From: Gemmatimonadales bacterium
GTDB lineage: Bacteria > Gemmatimonadota > Gemmatimonadetes > Longimicrobiales > Gaopeijiaceae
Direction of reading: 5' to 3'
Assembly (NCBI GenBank): GCA_007695225.1
Contig: REED01000173.1
Coordinates: 1-64,000 of the forward strand
DNA length: 64,000 bases
Below, in pieces: positions 5,163-13,748 of the stretch (its first letter is position 1; every line of letters starts with the position of its first letter). The notes beneath the pieces are model-generated. The model was given only the letters and a program-made list of their open reading frames with translations, was not told where the DNA came from and did no database searches. Both the position numbers and the translations under genes were made by a program.

Positions 5163-6146
5163 TCAGGGCGAGAGCCCCGACTCGAAATGGCCCACGAACT
5201 GGAGGAAGCGGGCCATTTCCACCATGTCGGTGGCCTGGAATCGGATGGTGCGAGCGCCGGCCCGATCCACGTTGGGGAGGTAAGCCAGCACCTCCGCCGG
5301 TCGGTAATTCTTGAAGGTGAGCTCCAACACCGGCGGGCCATCCAGTCGATGGGGGGTGAAGTCGCCCCGGGCCACGCCCTCCACCGCGCGGCGGGCCCCC
5401 TCCCGGATCCGGGCCTGGGCGGCCGCGGGGGTAAGGGTTCGGGCCGAGTGGAAGCCCAGCGCCTCCTTCACCGCCACCCCCTCCACCCGGTCCAGGAGCT
5501 CCTCCATCTCCCGAACGGTGACGTCGTCTCCGGTGACCAGCGCCACCGGCACCCCGAAGTGGCCGGCGATGGCGGCGCTCACCGCCCCCTCGGGAACGGG
5601 ACGTCCGTTCAGGACCACCGCGGCGTAGTCGGCGCTGGAGAAGGTATGGGCCCGAACCCCTTCCTCGTTGGTGGCGGCTGCGTGGTACCCGATGAGGAAG
5701 GCCGCATCGAAGGTTTCGTCCACCCCCTCCATCATCCCCAGGGGGCGGGGCCAGGCCCGAATGATCTCCACATCGTCGGGGAACCGTTCGATGAGGAGAT
5801 TCTGGCCATTCCCATGGGAGTCGGCCACCAGGAAGCGAGTCGCCCCGGCCTCCCGGGCCCCCTCGATGGCCGCCAGGGTCTCCGCCGTCATGAATTCCCG
5901 GAAGCGCGCGTACTCGAAGCCGCCGGGCCCCAGCTGCTCCGGCGTGACCGCCCCCGCCAGCCCCTCCATGTCCACCGAGATGAAGATGCTGAGGCCCTCC
6001 TGGGTCTGCGCCTCCGACACCGTGGGAGCCAACGCCATCGCCCACGCCCCGACCAGCGTCATCCCCAACCCCACGACCCTGCGGGGGAAGCGGCGGCCCG
6101 CGCCGCCTCCCATGGGGAGCCCGGCGCCGCCCGGGTCGGAGCTCAT
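5163..6146 (-). CDS. M55 family D-aminopeptidase, secreted (DppA-like)
   Basis: A 327-residue metallopeptidase of family M55, whose type member is the zinc D-aminopeptidase DppA of Bacillus. The N-terminus carries twin arginines (GRRFPRRVV) and a hydrophobic stretch ending in ...TVSEAQTQ, so it is likely exported. Family motifs: ISVDMEGLAGAV near the mature start, VADSHGNGQN, LIGYHAA and ALVTGDD. The ATG overlaps the trpA stop (ATGA), making it the last gene of the trp run. Export suggests turnover of D-amino-acid or dipeptide material outside the cytoplasm rather than a role in tryptophan synthesis. Confidence 0.85.
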   Translation of the reverse strand: MSSDPGGAGLPMGGGAGRRFPRRVVGLGMTLVGAWAMALAPTVSEAQTQEGLSIFISVDMEGLAGAVTPEQLGPGGFEYARFREFMTAETLAAIEGAREAGATRFLVADSHGNGQNLLIERFPDDVEIIRAWPRPLGMMEGVDETFDAAFLIGYHAAATNEEGVRAHTFSSADYAAVVLNGRPVPEGAVSAAIAGHFGVPVALVTGDDVTVREMEELLDRVEGVAVKEALGFHSARTLTPAAAQARIREGARRAVEGVARGDFTPHRLDGPPVLELTFKNYRPAEVLAYLPNVDRAGARTIRFQATDMVEMARFLQFVGHFESGLSP

Positions 6147-7000
6147 GAACCGGCCTCCGCCGGAGTCGGGGACGACGCGGCCGACGTGTGGGCGTCGGCG
6201 TGGGATGCGGTCGGGTCGTCCATGGCTTCCCGCAGCCCCCGGAGGAACCGGCCCCCTGCCTCCACCCCGCCCTCGTCCACCGCTTCCAGGAGCGCGCTTC
6301 CCACCACCACCCCGTCGGCGGCGGCGGCGGCCACCGCGGCCTGCTCCGGGGTGGAGATCCCGAAGCCCACGGCGATGGGAATCGCCACATGGGGCCGGAG
6401 GGCCGCGACCTCCCGGGCCAGCTCCTCCCGGAGGGCCACCCGGCCCCCGGTGACACCGGTACGGGAGATGTAATAGAGGAACCCCGACCCGTTCCGGGCC
6501 ACTTCGGGTACCCGCGCCGGAGCCGTGGTGGGCGCGAGAAGGCAGATGAGGTCCAGCCCACCGCGACGAGCGGCCCCCTCCAACTCCGGGTCGGCGCCGG
6601 CGGGAAGGTCGGTGAGGAGGAGGCCCTGGGCCCCTGCCTCCCGGGCTGCCTCCACAAAGGCATCCATCCCGAAGTGGTGGATGGGGTTCAGGTAGGTGAA
6701 GAGGACCACCGGGGTGTCCCGCTCCCGGCGGAACTCCGCCAGGATCTCCAGGCTCCCCCTTACCGTCATCCCCTTCTCCAGGGCCTGGAAGGTAGCTCGC
6801 TGGATGGTGGGGCCATCGGCCAGGGGATCGGAGAAGGGGATTCCCAGTTCCAGGACATCGGCCCCTGCGTCGGCGGCGGCGTGGAGAAGGGCCAGCGAGG
6901 CATCGCGGTCCGGGTACCCGGCGCAGATGTAGGGGACCAGGGCCGCCTGGCCCCGGGCCAGTCGGGACTGGAAGGCGTCGGCGATGGAGATGGAAGGCAT
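6143..7000 (-). CDS. trpA: tryptophan synthase alpha subunit
   Basis: Cleaves indole-3-glycerol phosphate to indole and glyceraldehyde 3-phosphate and passes indole to TrpB. 285 residues. The TIM-barrel catalytic acids are visible: Glu51 in LELGIPFSDP and Asp62 in LADGPT; the phosphate site is in the GFGIST and VVVGSALLE blocks and YYISRTGVTG is present. The C-terminal 25 residues (Ala/Ser/His/Pro rich) extend past the domain. Unlike in the usual trpBA pair, two signalling-type genes separate it from trpB; the 32-nt gap to the upstream HD-GYP gene still suggests one transcript. Confidence 0.96.
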   Translation of the reverse strand: MPSISIADAFQSRLARGQAALVPYICAGYPDRDASLALLHAAADAGADVLELGIPFSDPLADGPTIQRATFQALEKGMTVRGSLEILAEFRRERDTPVVLFTYLNPIHHFGMDAFVEAAREAGAQGLLLTDLPAGADPELEGAARRGGLDLICLLAPTTAPARVPEVARNGSGFLYYISRTGVTGGRVALREELAREVAALRPHVAIPIAVGFGISTPEQAAVAAAAADGVVVGSALLEAVDEGGVEAGGRFLRGLREAMDDPTASHADAHTSAASSPTPAEAGS

Positions 7001-7032: not shown

Positions 7033-8478
7033 TCAGGTGACGTAGTCCGCCACCTGGATGCCGTAGCGCTGGGGGTCGGCGGTCTTGATGATGGAACGCT
7101 TGAAGCCGCCGGTAGCCGGGTCCACCTCGTCCATCTGGATGCTGTAGGGCTCGGCCAGGGGAAGTCCCATCCCGTCGGAGAGGATCTTCACCTCGGGTTG
7201 ATGGAGCTTCTTGGGGTCGGTGTTGGTCCGGACCACCACGCCGAGTTCGTAGGAGTCCAGGATGACCAGTGTCCCCACCGGATAGACCCCGGCGGCAGAG
7301 ATGAGGGCCTTCACGATGATAGGGTCAAAGCCCCTCCCCGGATTGTCCCGCATCTCCCGGAGGACGGCATCGGGAGGCCAGGGCCTGTACTGGTAGCTCC
7401 GTTGCGAGGTGCCGGCGTCAAACCCGTCGGCCACCGCCACGATTCGCGAGAAGAGTCCGACCTCCCGGGGCCTGCGACTCCGGGGGTATCCCGACAGGTT
7501 CGTCTTCATGTGATGCTCGTAGGCCATGAGCATCTGGCGATACGGGACCTGGTTGAAGCCGTGGAGCTGGAAGAGTTCCAGGAGCCCGTCGGTGGCGTGC
7601 TCCTTCATGAGGATCCACTCCTTCTCGTCGAGTCCCCCAGCCTTGTTCAGCACATCCGCCGGAACCCGCATCTTCCCCACGTCATGGAAGAGGGCTCCGA
7701 GTCCCAGTTCGTAGAGCTGGAGCTTGTCCAGGCCCAGCCGCTGACCGATGACCACCGAGAAGATGCAGACGTTCACCGAATGGGTGAAGGTGTATTCGTC
7801 GAACTCCCGGAGGAGGGTCATGGCCATGATGGAGGGCTCGTTGGAGAGGACCTGATCCACGATCCCCTGCACGGCCCGCTTTACCCGTCGCACGTTCACA
7901 GCCCGGCCGATGCGTACGTCCGTGAGGACATCCCGAGCCATCTGCACCGAATAGGCATAGGTCCGCCGCGCACCCTCCAGGGATTCGTCCTCCAACTCGA
8001 GTTGCTGCACCTCCCGCTCGGGGCGGAGGAAGATGGCCACCACCGGAGTTCCGGTGAGGTGCTGCTCGAAGGCCTCGTAGCCATCCTCCTCGGCACCAGG
8101 CCGCAGAAGGAGGGACAGGAAAGGAGGCCATTCCTCACGCCGGATCCCCTCCTCCACGGTGATTCCCCCAATCCCGTGCTCCCTCAGTGCCCGGGCGAAA
8201 AACCCGAATGTGGAGAAGTTCTTGAGGTTGAGGCGGAGCCGGGTCTCGTTCAGGAAGAAGAAGTCGCCCATCACCCGGAAGTCCAGGACCCCCTCCCGTC
8301 CCACCAGGTCCACCACCTCTTCCTGGAGTTCCGTTATGGCCCGCTGCACGGTCTCGTTGTCCAGCGGGTAGAACTTGAGGGCCCGGAGTGCGGCATAGAG
8401 ACGGGTCAGGAGTCGGCGCCCATCCTCCTGGAGCGAATCCCTGGGGGCGCGGTTGTCGGGGGGATTATTGTCCGGCAT
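7033..8478 (-). CDS. HD-GYP-type phosphohydrolase with N-terminal partner-like domain
   Basis: 481 residues. The C-terminal half (about 225-420) is an HD-GYP domain: His233, His265-Asp266 in FHDVGKMRVP, His294, His322-His323 in YEHHMK and Gly-Tyr-Pro at 330-332, then ADGFDAGTS. The usual HHE..DG.GYP signature is altered to HHMKTNLSGYP. Canonical members degrade cyclic di-GMP; activity here is inferred from retained metal ligands only. Residues about 22-124 form a helical/beta domain similar to residues 31-130 of the HEAT protein immediately upstream (shared ALRA..Y and R..G...T...G...EE...FL.LL positions). One nucleotide separates the two genes. Confidence 0.85.
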   Translation of the reverse strand: MPDNNPPDNRAPRDSLQEDGRRLLTRLYAALRALKFYPLDNETVQRAITELQEEVVDLVGREGVLDFRVMGDFFFLNETRLRLNLKNFSTFGFFARALREHGIGGITVEEGIRREEWPPFLSLLLRPGAEEDGYEAFEQHLTGTPVVAIFLRPEREVQQLELEDESLEGARRTYAYSVQMARDVLTDVRIGRAVNVRRVKRAVQGIVDQVLSNEPSIMAMTLLREFDEYTFTHSVNVCIFSVVIGQRLGLDKLQLYELGLGALFHDVGKMRVPADVLNKAGGLDEKEWILMKEHATDGLLELFQLHGFNQVPYRQMLMAYEHHMKTNLSGYPRSRRPREVGLFSRIVAVADGFDAGTSQRSYQYRPWPPDAVLREMRDNPGRGFDPIIVKALISAAGVYPVGTLVILDSYELGVVVRTNTDPKKLHQPEVKILSDGMGLPLAEPYSIQMDEVDPATGGFKRSIIKTADPQRYGIQVADYVT

Positions 8479-8479
8479 C

Positions 8480-10243
8480 TCACTCCCCCCTGAGGGATCG
8501 GTTCACGGCACTCCGGACCACCGGATCCTGCTCATCCCGGGCCCGTTCCAGGGAATCGTACGCCGCATCGGTGCCCACCACCCCCAGGGCCCGGGCTGCG
8601 GCGGCACGGATCTCCGGCGGCTCCCGGAAACCCAGGATCCCCTTTCCATTCAGGAGCCGATCCAGGAAGGGGATTCCCCGCTCCGCCGCCAGACGGGCAT
8701 AGGCCTCGAAGAAGACCACTTTTTCGGTGACATCGGCACTCCGCAGCGCCTTCCCCTTGAGAATCTCCTGGAGGCGCTCCGCCGCCGGGGCGTAGCGGGT
8801 CCGCCCCAGGGCTCGGGCCGCCCCCACCCGAAGGTCCCTGTTCTGGTGGGTGAGGCTTCGCTCCAGCGCTCCCGCCAGCGCTGAGGACGGAATCTCTCCT
8901 GCTACCTCCACCACCGCCAACTGGACCCGAAGGGGACCCCCGTCCAGGAGCCGTGCCAGGCTTCCCGCGGCTTCGGAGAGCCCCATCCCTTCCAGAAGCC
9001 GGACCGCCCCCGCCGCCACGGCCGGGTCCGGGTCCTCCAGGAGCTGGAGTACCCCCTGGGGATTGGACGCGGCGATCTTCCGGATGGCGTCCTGGAGGAG
9101 GCGGCGGATGATGGGGTGGGCCGTCTCCTCGGTGGCCGCCAGGAGAGGGGCCAGGGCGGGCGCTCGGAGATGACGAAGTAGGCCGGCCAGCTCATTGGCG
9201 TCGGTACTCACCGAGCCATCCTCCAGGGCCCCTACGAGCTCCCTCACCGATTCGCCGGAGGCCAGCTCGTCCAGGATCTGGTCCGCTCGTTCCCTGGCCG
9301 CGTCGGACAGGAGCCCCCGGGCTCGCAGGGACTCCAATTCCTCCAGGACCCGGGAGGCGCCATCCAGCTCTCCCTGGCTTAGGAACCCGGGAAGTAGGGA
9401 CCGGAGAATCTCTGTGATCTCCTCCTGGCGGTCCGGACGGGCATTCTCCTCCAGGCGATCGAAGAGGGCGTTCAGCACGGGGATCCGAAGGTCCCGCTCC
9501 ATCTCCAGCCGGAGTTCGGCGTCCAGGTATTCCCGATCTCCGGGGTCCAGGGCATAGAGGGCAGGATTGAAGTCCTGGACCCGGAAGGCCGGCTCCACCT
9601 CCTTTGTCCGCTCCCGGACCATGGATTGATCTGCGGATGGATCTGCTTTCCCTTCCTCCCCGCCCTGGTTCAGCCCCACTCCCTCCTGCTCCAGGATGAG
9701 TCGTGGGTCGCCCAGCCCACCGTCGCCCCGCTCGGGTACGGCCACCCCCTCGGCCAGGAAATCCATGACCCCGTATTCCACGAACCGGAAGTCCTGGTCC
9801 CAGAGGAGGGTGACCAGGTCGTCGGCATCCCCCCTGGCGTGACGGGCCCGGTGGAGCACCTCCAGGAACCCCTCCACCTCCTCCTTCTCCAGCCCCTTCT
9901 TCAGGGTGAGTTCCCTCACTCCGTCCCGGAAGAGGAGGAAGGAGAGGGATTCGGCCCGACTGGGATTCCGGTAGACCTCCTCCCCCTGCCAGGTGATCCG
10001 ATCCTCCTCCACCAGGAGGGGCAAGCGATCCTGCCCCCTCCACAGGCGACCCATGGCCTGGCGGAGGTTGCTCAGGAACCGATGGTAGACCGGGTTGTTC
10101 CGATCGTAGAGCTGGAAGGCCCGAAGCGCCTTGGCCAGGGTCAGGAAGAACTCCTCCACTTCGGCCACCGGAAGGGAGGAGGGATCCCCCCAGTCCAGTG
10201 CCGTGGCGCCCTCCGCCAGCGGATTATGAAGCTCTTCTCCCAC
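8480..10243 (-). CDS. HEAT-repeat protein, partner of the HD-GYP gene
   Basis: 587 residues, GTG start preceded by GAGG. Three parts are visible: residues about 31-130, a domain homologous to the N-terminus of the downstream HD-GYP protein; about 130-340, an acidic helical linker; about 340-587, HEAT-like repeats with recurring D.DP.VAAGAVRLL, RDLRVGAARALG and IRAAAARALG helices, ending in DPVVRSAVNRSL. No catalytic motif or membrane segment is seen, so a scaffold or regulatory subunit is likely. It lies between trpB (47-nt gap) and the HD-GYP gene. The presumed job, inferred from the shared domain, is to form a complex with, or modulate, the HD-GYP enzyme. Confidence 0.75.
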   Translation of the reverse strand: MGEELHNPLAEGATALDWGDPSSLPVAEVEEFFLTLAKALRAFQLYDRNNPVYHRFLSNLRQAMGRLWRGQDRLPLLVEEDRITWQGEEVYRNPSRAESLSFLLFRDGVRELTLKKGLEKEEVEGFLEVLHRARHARGDADDLVTLLWDQDFRFVEYGVMDFLAEGVAVPERGDGGLGDPRLILEQEGVGLNQGGEEGKADPSADQSMVRERTKEVEPAFRVQDFNPALYALDPGDREYLDAELRLEMERDLRIPVLNALFDRLEENARPDRQEEITEILRSLLPGFLSQGELDGASRVLEELESLRARGLLSDAARERADQILDELASGESVRELVGALEDGSVSTDANELAGLLRHLRAPALAPLLAATEETAHPIIRRLLQDAIRKIAASNPQGVLQLLEDPDPAVAAGAVRLLEGMGLSEAAGSLARLLDGGPLRVQLAVVEVAGEIPSSALAGALERSLTHQNRDLRVGAARALGRTRYAPAAERLQEILKGKALRSADVTEKVVFFEAYARLAAERGIPFLDRLLNGKGILGFREPPEIRAAAARALGVVGTDAAYDSLERARDEQDPVVRSAVNRSLRGE

Positions 10244-10290
10244 AGATCCCTCGTGTGGTTGTCTCTGGTCGATCCCGGTCGGAATCAGGA

Positions 10291-11514
10291 TCAGAGAATG
10301 GACCCTCGACCCTCCACCCGGGCCACATGGGCCACGTCCTTGTCCCCCCGTCCGCTGAGGCAGAGGACCACCGGACCCTCTTCCACCTCGTGACGCCCTT
10401 CCCCGAGAAGGTATGCCACAGCGTGCGCCGTCTCCAGAGCGGGGATGATTCCCTCCAATTCTGCAAGGCGGTGGAAGGCGGCCAGCGCGTCGTCGTCGGT
10501 CACCGCCACGTAGGTGGCCCGCCCCGAGTCCTTGAGGAAGGAATGTTCCGGCCCCACCCCCGGGTAGTCCAGTCCCGCCGAGACGGAATGGGCCGGCGCC
10601 ACCTGGCCGTCGCCGTCCTGAAGGAGGTAGGAGAGGGCGCCATGGAGGACGCCTGGACTCCCGGCGGACAGAGAGGCGGAATGCCGGCCTGACGCCAGTC
10701 CCTCACCGGCGGCCTCCACCCCCACCAGTCGAACGTCGGCGTCCCCGGCAAAGGGATGGAAGATCCCCATGGCGTTGGAGCCCCCGCCGACGCAGGCCAC
10801 CACCGCCGCCGGCAGTCGTCCTTCCAGCTCCAGGATCTGCTCCCGGGTTTCGGTTCCGATGACGGACTGGAAGTCACGGACCATCCGGGGGAAGGGTGCG
10901 GGCCCCACCACCGACCCGATGATGTAGTGGGTATCGCCCACGTTGGTGACCCAGTCCCGGATGGCCTCGTTGGTGGCGTCCTTGAGGGTCTGGGTTCCGG
11001 AGCGCACGGGGCGGATGTCGGCCCCCAGGAGCTCCATGCGGAAGACGTTCAGCGCCTGGCGCTCCACATCTTCGGCGCCCATGTAGACGACGCACTCCAG
11101 ATCGAAGAGGGCGCAGGCGGTGGCAGTGGCCACCCCGTGCTGGCCGGCTCCTGTCTCGGCGATGATCCGCTTCTTCCCCATGCGTCGGGCCAGGAGTCCC
11201 TGACCGATGGTGTTGTTGATCTTGTGGGCCCCGGTGTGGTTCAGATCCTCCCGCTTCAGGTAGATGGGGCCGCCTCCCACCTCCGCTTCCAGACGCCGGG
11301 CGCGGTAGAGGGGAGAGGGCCGACCCACGAAGTTCTGGAGGAGGTACCGGAACTCCCGAAGGAACTCGGGATCGGCCATGGCCTGGGCGTAGGCCACCTC
11401 CAACTCGTCCAGGGCGGCGATGAGGGTTTCGGGAACGTAGCGTCCCCCGAAGGCACCGAAGCGGTCGGAGGGGACGGCGGTATCAGGATGGGCGGGAGCG
11501 GCGGAGCCGGACAT
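10291..11514 (-). CDS. trpB: tryptophan synthase beta subunit
   Basis: PLP enzyme joining indole and serine to make tryptophan. 407 residues from the ATG at 11514; a GTG at 11523 would add three residues. PLP Lys98 is in the HKINN motif; also present are [25 protein letters not shown], the phosphate-binding [10 protein letters not shown] and the C-terminal CLSGRGDKD, which mark the TrpB1 type that works with TrpA. trpF lies upstream with a 39-nt gap; a HEAT gene lies downstream. Length and motifs are intact. Confidence 0.97.
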
Positions 11515-11553
11515 ATGGAACACCCCGTTGGGGAAGGATGAGTATGATCGGGT

Positions 11554-12225
11554 TCAACGTGGAACCGCGGCGCGGGCCTGGCGGGCGGCCTCTACGAAGG
11601 CATGGAGCGCCCTCGGGTCCTTCTCTCCCGGAGAGACCTCGACACCGGAACTCACATCCACGAGATCCGGGAGAAGGCGGGTCACGGCCTCGGCCACATT
11701 CGCCGGCTGGAGGCCTCCAGCAGCCCCCAGCCGAAGGCCGGCCGGCCAGAGGTCACGCGCCTCCTCCAGCGCCTCCCAGGGGAACCGGGTTCCCGTACCC
11801 CCCCGCTGCAGGGGGTGCCAACCATCCAGGAGGAGAAGGTCCGCCACCCCCACCCAGCGACGGGCGGCGGCGAGGATCTCCGGACCGGAGCGGACCCTCA
11901 CCGCCTTCCAGAGTTCCCAGGAGCCTCGTCGACGGAGGGCGGTGAAGACCTCCTCGTCCTCTTCCCCATGGAGCTGGATGGCGGCTGCGCCGGCCCTCAT
12001 GGCCACCTCCGTCATCTCCGACACGGAGAGGTCCGCCACCACCAGGGTGAGGGGGAGTGACGCCACTTCCCCCAGCCGTTGCGCCTGGGCCGGGGAGACT
12101 TCCCGGGGGGTGCCGGGAACGAGAACCGCCCCCACCCGGTCGGCGCCAGCCTCGGCGGCGCTCCGGGCATCCTCCTCCCGGGTGAGACCGCAGATCTTGA
12201 TCTCCATTCCTCGCAGCCCCGTCAC
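11554..12225 (-). CDS. trpF: phosphoribosylanthranilate isomerase
   Basis: Amadori isomerisation of phosphoribosylanthranilate, the third step of tryptophan synthesis. 223 residues from a GTG whose first bases overlap the trpC stop (GTGA). An ATG at 12207 gives the more usual family start MEIKICG and is the main alternative; neither has a well-spaced Shine-Dalgarno. Motifs: catalytic Cys in KICGLT, IQLHGEE, LLLDGW with the catalytic Asp, and the phosphate site RLGAAGGLQPANV with DVSSGVE. Coupled to trpC and followed by trpB. Confidence 0.94.
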   Translation of the reverse strand: MTGLRGMEIKICGLTREEDARSAAEAGADRVGAVLVPGTPREVSPAQAQRLGEVASLPLTLVVADLSVSEMTEVAMRAGAAAIQLHGEEDEEVFTALRRRGSWELWKAVRVRSGPEILAAARRWVGVADLLLLDGWHPLQRGGTGTRFPWEALEEARDLWPAGLRLGAAGGLQPANVAEAVTRLLPDLVDVSSGVEVSPGEKDPRALHAFVEAARQARAAVPR

Positions 12226-13088
12226 CTCCGGGGGACCGGCCGGGGGCGGGAGAGTTCCCGGGACAGGGCCTCCGGATCGGGAGCCCGGACCAGCGCCTCT
12301 CCCACCAGAACCGCATCCACCCCCTCCGCGGCGAGGCGCGCCGCGTCCTCCCCTGTGCGGATCCCGCTCTCCGACACCAGGACCACCTCGGGGGGGACCG
12401 AATCCAGGAGGTCCAGGGTCACCTGCAGGTCGGTGGAGAAGGTGGCCAGATCCCGGTTGTTGATCCCCAGGATCCGGGCGCCGGAGGCCAGCGCCCGTTC
12501 CACCTCCTCCCCATCATGGGCCTCCACCAACACCGCCATCCCCAGCTCCTCAGCCAGGAGACGAAGGTCCCGTAGTGGGCCGTCCTCGAGGATCCGAACG
12601 ATGAGCAGGATGGCGTCGGCTCCGAACGCCCGGGCCTCGTGGACCTGAACCGGGTCCAGGACGAAGTCCTTCCTGAGACAGGGAAGGGGAACCGCCTCCC
12701 GAACCCCGGACAGATCGTCCAGGGATCCCTGGAAGTAGGAGGTGTCGGTGAGGATGGAGAGGGCCCGGGCCCCGCCGGCTGCGTACCGCTTCGCCAGGAC
12801 CACCGGGTCCAGTTCGGGCCGGATCGCACCGGCGCCAGGGGAGCGGCGCTTCACCTCGGCGATGAGGGAAAGACCCGAGGGATCCGCCAGGACCCCGTGG
12901 AAATCCCGGGGCGGGGGCGCCTCGGCGGCGCGTCGGGCCCACTCCGCGGCGCGGGGCCGAAGCGCCTCCACCTCCTTCCGCTTCGTCTCCACGATGCGCT
13001 GGAGGACATCCTCACGGCGGGACTCCGCCCCAGGGTGCGTTGGGGCGTCGGGTGTGGTGTCGGAAATCTTCTCTTGCGTTTCGGACAA
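12222..13088 (-). CDS. trpC: indole-3-glycerol phosphate synthase
   Basis: Decarboxylative ring closure giving indole-3-glycerol phosphate. Core motifs: LQRIVETKRKEVEAL at the N-terminus, LIAEVKRRSPGAG, LTD..YFQGS, LRKDFVLDP, ILLIVRIL, LGINNRDL, SESGI and AVLVGEALV. The frame is open far upstream across lexA, so the start must be chosen: I take the TTG at 13088 (288 residues), with AAGGA about 10 nt before it. Family members start 10-20 residues before the ETKRKEV helix, so a start anywhere from 13088 down to about 13000 is possible. Head-to-head with lexA. Confidence 0.9.
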   Translation of the reverse strand: MSETQEKISDTTPDAPTHPGAESRREDVLQRIVETKRKEVEALRPRAAEWARRAAEAPPPRDFHGVLADPSGLSLIAEVKRRSPGAGAIRPELDPVVLAKRYAAGGARALSILTDTSYFQGSLDDLSGVREAVPLPCLRKDFVLDPVQVHEARAFGADAILLIVRILEDGPLRDLRLLAEELGMAVLVEAHDGEEVERALASGARILGINNRDLATFSTDLQVTLDLLDSVPPEVVLVSESGIRTGEDAARLAAEGVDAVLVGEALVRAPDPEALSRELSRPRPVPRR

Positions 13089-13139: not shown

Positions 13140-13748
13140 ATGCCCCTGACCAAGCGGCAGAAGGAAATCCTGGATCACATCGGTTCCTACATCCAGGAAA
13201 ACGGGTACGCCCCAAGCTTCGAGGAGATCGCCGACGCCTTCGGCTATTCCTCCCTGGCCACCGTCCACGAGCACCTTAGCAATCTGGAGCGGAAAGGGTA
13301 CATCCGGAAGGCGTACAACGAGAGCCGGTCCATCGAGCTGGTCCGGGGGACGGCTCAGGCGGGGGCGGTGGAACTCCCCCTCCTGGGCGAGGTGGCCGCT
13401 GGCCAACCCATCGAGGCCATCACCGCCCAGGAAACGGTTCTCGTCCCCCCGGATCTCCTCCGGCGCCGGGGAGAGAACTACGTCCTCCGGGTGGTGGGCA
13501 ACTCCATGATCGACGAGCAGATCCGGGACGGGGATCAGATCATCGTGAACAGTCGCCCCACCGCCGACGACGGCGAGATGGTGGTGGCCCTCATCGGGGG
13601 AGAGGCGGCCACGGTGAAGAAGCTCTACCGGGAGCGGGACGGCCGGATCCGTCTGCAGCCTGCCAACGAGGCGCTGAAGCCCATGTACTTCCACCCCGAC
13701 GAGGTCACGGTGCAGGGGGTGGTGGTGGGCGTCATCCGCCGCTACTGA
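13140..13748 (+). CDS. lexA: LexA SOS repressor
   Basis: Represses DNA-damage genes and cleaves itself when RecA filaments form. 202 residues. The ATG at 13140 (GGAG about 7 nt before) is chosen over longer in-frame extensions. N-terminal winged helix: LTKRQKEILDHIGSYIQENG, YAPSFEEIADAFGYSS. Cleavage bond Ala87-Gly88 in EVAAGQP; catalytic Ser122 in VVGNSMIDEQI and Lys160 in AATVKKLY. All active residues are present. It sits alone on the plus strand inside the trp cluster, divergent from trpC. Confidence 0.96.
   Translation: MPLTKRQKEILDHIGSYIQENGYAPSFEEIADAFGYSSLATVHEHLSNLERKGYIRKAYNESRSIELVRGTAQAGAVELPLLGEVAAGQPIEAITAQETVLVPPDLLRRRGENYVLRVVGNSMIDEQIRDGDQIIVNSRPTADDGEMVVALIGGEAATVKKLYRERDGRIRLQPANEALKPMYFHPDEVTVQGVVVGVIRRY

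Follow-up and report, generated by a model that had tools for sequence, protein, structure and literature searches.

The catalytic site of HD-GYP phosphodiesterases has been probed by mutation in PmGH, in which alanine replacement of the metal ligands H189, H221, D222, H250, H276 and H277, as well as of D183 and K225, essentially abolishes activity and that of D308 has a similar effect, while the E185 and D305 mutants retain some activity (PMC4159591). A motif of the Y-T-F type has been assigned to a binuclear subgroup of these proteins (PMC4159591), whose members are described in a review as hydrolysing their substrate in one step; in PmxA a glutamine has been linked to a preference for cGAMP (PMC8177086).

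The window considered here (the whole 64,000-nt stretch of DNA that was analysed) comes from a 4.18 Mb assembly whose close relatives, as judged from scans of genomes, lie in the Gemmatimonadota. On its minus strand, the strand of all coordinates that follow, we observe two genes 1 nt apart, at the positions given by the initial annotation: an upstream gene for a 587-aa HEAT-repeat protein (8480-10243) and a downstream gene for a 481-aa HD-GYP protein (7033-8478). The pair sits, as had also been annotated, inside the trp cluster, with trpB (10291-11523; NCBIfam TIGR00263) directly upstream and trpA (6143-7000; NCBIfam TIGR00262) directly downstream on the same strand. No promoter- or terminator-like sites were seen on this strand between positions 6000 and 13800, which fits a single transcript, though as weak evidence.

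Each protein begins with a domain of similar type, hereafter the N-domain, followed by a different output. In the HD-GYP protein the N-domain (8020-8445, residues ~12-153, delimited by its profile match to the HEAT protein and by modelled secondary structure) is joined through two long modelled helices (7819-7989, residues ~164-220) to the HD-GYP catalytic domain (7291-7809, residues ~224-396), for which Pfam reports HD_5/HD at residues 230-386 and the PDB gives matches to 4mcw, 5z7c, 9rbz, 4r8z and 3tm8; the model places a beta domain at the C-terminus (7036-7290, residues ~397-481). In the HEAT protein the N-domain (9767-10168, residues ~26-159, from profile match and model) is followed by a disordered linker (residues ~160-230) and a HEAT-repeat solenoid (8492-9544, residues ~234-584), identified by a Pfam HEAT_2 match (E 1.9e-14), by the AlphaFold2 model and by PDB fold matches to alphaRep and HEAT proteins.

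The two proteins have homologous N-termini. A profile of 43 HD-GYP orthologues and one of 35 HEAT orthologues can be aligned across 105 columns (HD-GYP residues 18-126 against HEAT residues 27-131) with a probability of 97.1 and an E-value of 7.7e-11, while control regions of the same two proteins reach a probability of at most 1.3, column-shuffled profiles (n = 100) at most 2.9 and a reversed profile 0.6. Plain BLASTP between the two proteins finds no match, the one observation that would suit a chance likeness of helix patterns; such an explanation has a negligible probability given the shuffle and region controls, the ability of single-family HMMs to find the partner family in most individual genomes (E ~1e-4 to 1e-8), and the recurrence of the paired domains in other phyla, and we regard it as ruled out. 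The AlphaFold2 models of the two proteins (pLDDT 84.5 and 85.4) place the elements of both N-domains in the same order, H-H-E-E-E-H-E-H-H-E, and it is from this order together with the profile match that we judge the folds to be the same. The homology proposed in the initial annotation thus held under both the profile-profile comparison and the structure prediction it had called for; its limits for the domain covered the correct region and were slightly short, as the domain reaches ~153 in the HD-GYP protein and ~159 in the HEAT protein. Its suggestion of duplication needs more amendment: one N-terminal module has indeed been fused to two different outputs, but a single recent duplication is not borne out by the N-domain tree, in which the main HD-GYP and HEAT N-domains form separate well-supported clades already within Gemmatimonadota.

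We find no described family to which this domain belongs. Pfam gives no family above cut-off across the shared N-termini of either protein, and searches of 22 diverse members against Pfam and NCBIfam give no consistent match. A known fold was likewise rejected, as a PDB sequence search with the N-domain returned nothing convincing and the top 50 Foldseek matches listed were to HD and HEAT structures, with no clear match to the N-domain. Its partners elsewhere are those of signalling proteins: one deltaproteobacterial genome encodes two GGDEF-AAA-N-domain-HEAT proteins with two N-domains each, the same form recurs in several Omnitrophota, the N-domain stands ahead of PAS-histidine kinase modules (kinases L301-L303, L312), and tandem copies occur in one chain (L261). 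The N-domain is most likely an alpha/beta signal-transduction domain without a name.

The two genes travel together. Among the 58 relatives surveyed, they are adjacent with the HEAT gene first wherever an intact locus was assembled in the order, so that separation of the genes in related genomes, which the initial annotation had named as grounds for doubt, was not encountered; the commonest arrangement is an overlap of exactly 4 nt (26 of 46 loci). The HD-GYP N-domain was detected in 208 of 298 Gemmatimonadota genomes, strongly in 201, and all 17 loci fetched from other families of the phylum contain the pair. Outside the phylum, Nitrospirota, Aminicenantota and Desulfobacterota have full-length orthologous pairs, whereas those of Omnitrophota, Acidobacteriota and, probably, Planctomycetota are more distant. 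In the phylum to which a Syntrophaceae genome belongs, 94 of 121 N-domain matches lie in adjacent same-strand pairs (47 adjacent pairs against 0.12 expected by chance, two of the 47 being tandem copies in one open frame), and in Omnitrophota 32 of 60 do so (16 pairs against 0.04 expected). Extra pairs in one relative (G003) group with another family in the trees of both proteins, as does one extra pair in a second relative (G006) in the HD-GYP tree; the pair therefore appears to have been transferred as a unit. Gemmatimonadota also contain a second, distant type of pair, again an N-domain-HEAT protein followed by an N-domain-HD-GYP protein, and the genome from which the window derives carries one (L079), adjoining a REC-GGDEF gene. 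These observations support the HEAT/HD-GYP pair as a conserved functional unit, and its recurrence in several phyla makes it look like an ancient signalling module and not a local oddity of tryptophan genes.

The occurrence of the pair depends on the presence of GGDEF proteins. At least six such proteins are encoded in all 42 relatives with an intact pair, and at most four in 13 of the 16 relatives without it. Across the 298 Gemmatimonadota genomes, GGDEF proteins are found in 201 of 201 strong pair-bearers and the pair in 0 of 44 genomes lacking GGDEF, in a tally where the highest counts are to be read as at least ~11, the genomes are related and genome size may confound. GGDEF proteins are not sufficient, as 35 of 97 pairless Gemmatimonadota have at least three. 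Two other associations were considered and rejected: a flagellar function, with FlhA found in only 9 of the 58 relatives, and type IV pili, with full-length PilM matches also found in several pairless genomes (G011, G021, G024).

To judge from its catalytic residues, the HD-GYP protein is likely an active enzyme. The metal motif H...HD...H...HH...D is complete (H233, H265-D266, H294, H322-H323 and D351, in 42-43 of 43 orthologues), the triad G330-Y331-P332 is invariant (43/43), and D227, H233, H265, D266, K269, H294, H322, H323, D351 and D354, which correspond to PmGH activity residues (PMC4159591), are kept in 41-43 of the 43 orthologues, and the sequences examined from other phyla have them too. 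The window protein departs from the full consensus HHExxDGxGYP, and its metal motif and GYP triad agree with the broader definition of HD-GYP. Where the initial annotation saw an altered motif, HHMKTNLSGYP (residues 322-332), we find a signature fixed throughout a subfamily, and hence not an individual change: the stretch EHHMKTNLSGYP (7483-7518, residues 321-332) shows E-H-H-M and G-Y-P without exception in the 43 orthologues, the consensus is HHMKxDLTGYP with M invariant in the 43 Gemmatimonadota sequences, and other phyla have Met, Leu or Ile where the HHE glutamate would stand, giving EHH[M/L/I]xx[D/N]xxGYP overall. The annotated motif and a likely active metal site stand, but the claim that all ligands are kept does not, as one of the eight of PmGH, the third-metal ligand E185, is replaced. 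Neither Glu nor Asp, the mark of the trinuclear subgroup, occurs at that position; it is Tyr229 in 43 of 43 orthologues, with the equivalent tyrosine changed in one distant member (L161), and the Y229-T-F motif places the protein in the subgroup predicted to be binuclear (PMC4159591); with the residues essential in PmGH kept, an active binuclear enzyme is predicted. PmGH R314 is kept as R360, and the guanine-contacting K317 is replaced by Gln363; because the HHE glutamate is hydrophobic throughout and the K317 equivalent is a glutamine, the substrate could differ.

These same substitutions could be taken to mean that the protein is no c-di-GMP phosphodiesterase: it might cleave a different phosphoester, or it might have no activity and serve as a binding module whose signal passes through contacts with the HEAT protein, a role suggested for some other degenerate HD-GYP and EAL domains. 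The loss of the HHE glutamate (to M, L or I) in the whole subfamily, the Gln and Tyr at the K317 and E185 equivalents, and a member of the second type (L076) in which the second histidine and the GYP are gone would all be compatible with this, as is the inactivity of Bd1817, a solved binuclear HD-GYP (PMC4159591, PMC8177086). Yet the residues whose alanine mutants are dead in PmGH are kept across phyla, the PmGH E185A protein is still partly active, and the GYP, which in Bd1817 is without its tyrosine, is intact here, so that we consider such a role unlikely, though far from negligible.

We therefore come to the reading we favour, and hold to be probable if by no means secure, that the pair is a two-subunit cyclic-dinucleotide phosphodiesterase module with the HD-GYP protein as catalytic subunit, the HEAT protein as its dedicated partner, and the shared N-domains serving for pairing and/or sensing. 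Catalytic activity, substrate, complex formation and direction of control are all things that we infer for the pair. The HD-GYP subunit would be a binuclear metal phosphodiesterase that opens a cyclic dinucleotide made by GGDEF proteins (c-di-GMP or 3',3'-cGAMP), a single cleavage probably giving the linear dinucleotide, and the HEAT subunit would act on it as a dedicated regulator or scaffold. The likeliest task of the N-domains would be to hold the subunits together and/or to take up the controlling signal, which may then pass through the long helical linker to the HD-GYP catalytic domain, and the HEAT solenoid may bind a further protein. Alternatively, the N-domain might sense one ligand independently in each of the two proteins, which would then form no stable complex: the domain stands N-terminal to or ahead of the output in the kinases (L301-L303, L312), much as sensor domains do, and is found within the cyclase fusions. 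On the other hand, genes that are strictly adjacent, overlap by 4 nt and are inherited and transferred jointly point to a stoichiometric pair, and the tandem N-domains of L261 suggest self-pairing, so that independent sensing seems to us the less than likely case, albeit one deserving attention. The term two-component-like used in the initial annotation is misleading, since neither protein contains a histidine kinase or receiver domain, even though the N-domain is fused to histidine kinases elsewhere. Taking the fusions and pairs together, we offer tentatively, as somewhat less likely than not, the idea that the N-domain, so far undescribed and present across phyla, is a signalling domain through which cyclic-dinucleotide enzymes are brought together with HEAT scaffolds, such that HEAT/HD-GYP pairs, GGDEF-AAA-HEAT fusions and histidine kinases interconnect through it as a new class of heteromeric complex, possibly with altered substrate preference.

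The position within the trp cluster had led the initial annotation to propose coupling of the pair to growth state. In most sampled Gemmatimonadota the pair does separate trpB from trpA, in a block that has truA/tal at one boundary and an rqcH-like gene at the other, and a group in Omnitrophota shows the order trpF-trpB-trpA-HEAT-HD-GYP (L296, L297) or parts of it (L160, L300); this group is split from Gemmatimonadota in the HD-GYP tree by pairs without nearby trp genes, and two trp linkages in two phyla keep alive the idea of a functional coupling to tryptophan synthesis or growth state. Against it, the pair and the trp genes are each found without the other: the pair stays in place without flanking trpB and trpA in three relatives and one family (G010, G019, G050, f9), extra copies lie apart from trp genes, and outside Gemmatimonadota most of the pairs examined lack a neighbouring trp gene, while many pairless genomes have intact trp genes with trpB and trpA directly joined, for which reason we reject the pair as a requirement for tryptophan synthesis. 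Three of the genomes without the pair retain remnants of it just upstream of trpA, with sequence of the C-terminal beta domain among them (HD-GYP residues 439-480 in G005, 401-480 together with HEAT residues 6-245 in G013, and 383-481 in G032), and have thus lost it secondarily. Growth coupling through trp is accordingly an improbable reading with weak support, old as the linkage is in Gemmatimonadota; the trp position is best seen as an old genomic address, possibly useful for co-expression and not the core of the function.

In the openly licensed papers searched, we found neither the HEAT/HD-GYP pair, nor the N-domain, nor the subfamily signature; the enzyme domain is of a known kind, and these three features are new relative to that searchable literature. 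The locus adds a domain that has no Pfam or NCBIfam entry, marks out an HD-GYP subfamily by the signature EHH[MLI]xx[DN]xxGYP, and reveals a two-gene unit that has stayed together in distant phyla. Should the two proteins form a complex, this would give a rule by which to find partner and regulator for many HD-GYP enzymes not yet characterised, and G005, G013 and G032, where the pair was lost naturally and the trp cluster is intact, would serve for comparison. The pair also offers a simple means of asking if a cyclic-dinucleotide enzyme is under the control of a HEAT solenoid.

Several known systems invite comparison with the pair. Bd1817 (3tm8), the unconventional binuclear HD-GYP of Bdellovibrio, shares with the HD-GYP protein the predicted binuclear site and gives a fold match with a TM-score of 0.63 (target-normalised), its sequence match beginning at the linker (query residue 198-200) and not in the N-domain; it is an inactive protein without the GYP tyrosine (PMC4159591), whereas the window protein keeps its GYP. 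The likeness to DUF3391-HD-GYP proteins is confined to the linker, where residues 153-198 weakly resemble the end of DUF3391 (E 0.0036, below cut-off), and the core of the N-domain is unlike DUF3391. With the HD-GYP phosphodiesterases PmGH (4mcw), V-cGAP3 (5z7c), DvhD (9rbz) and PA4781 (4r8z), the window protein shares the catalytic fold, the metal ligands apart from E185, the GYP loop and the R314 equivalent; it differs from them in the change of E185 to Tyr (binuclear subgroup), of HHE to HH[MLI] and of K317 to Gln, and in its unnamed N-domain, C-terminal beta domain and dedicated HEAT partner. Phosphatases of the PP2A type are HEAT-scaffolded, and by analogy the present pair would likewise set a HEAT solenoid beside a metal phosphohydrolase, of unrelated catalytic fold and in an association that is here predicted.

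In Omnitrophota, the N-terminal domain common to the HEAT-repeat and HD-GYP proteins also begins histidine kinases that contain PAS, HisKA and HATPase domains (loci L301:4224-6647, L302:2569-4923, L303:5217-7796 and L312:4170-6428). Single proteins of 1311-1450 aa combine GGDEF, this N-domain and C-terminal HEAT repeats in Omnitrophota (L304-L308) and in a deltaproteobacterial MAG (L261:3511-7860 and 8570-12856), the latter with tandem N-domains, two per protein; an AAA ATPase domain was confirmed by Pfam in all four of the GGDEF fusion proteins scanned. A further N-domain-like match in Omnitrophota (G370:C13:63717-63992) lies within a giant gene, an open frame of ~23,600 codons.

Additional HEAT/HD-GYP pairs occur in several genomes. 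On contig C116 of the window's own genome, a second, distant pair (L079:8157-12841) adjoins a REC-GGDEF gene, and in genome G003 a stand-alone receiver domain (L061:9020-9514) begins a few bases past an extra pair. One HD-GYP protein of the second, distant pair type (L076:8248-9624) has lost the second histidine and GYP (EHQLAYEADHPD) and is probably inactive. In G006, the HEAT gene of an extra pair (L063:8161-9660) is interrupted by a TAG codon in frame and its N-domain is truncated; it is possibly decaying.

Three genomes that have lost the pair still hold remnants of it (L235:6950-7075, L080:8444-9402 and L244:6097-6393), in each case including the stretch of the HD-GYP gene that encodes its C-terminus, immediately before trpA; retention of this C-terminal domain, or of its DNA, may serve some purpose, for example in trpA expression. 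Elsewhere in the trp neighbourhood, a lexA-like gene (window positions 13150-13748, + strand) separates trpC from trpD and is transcribed in the opposite direction, a placement seen in several relatives. Linkage to trp extends to a second phylum, Omnitrophota, where trpA is followed immediately downstream by the pair or by its HEAT gene (L296 and L297, from genomes G343 and G346, and also L160 and L300), in a gene order unlike that in Gemmatimonadota.
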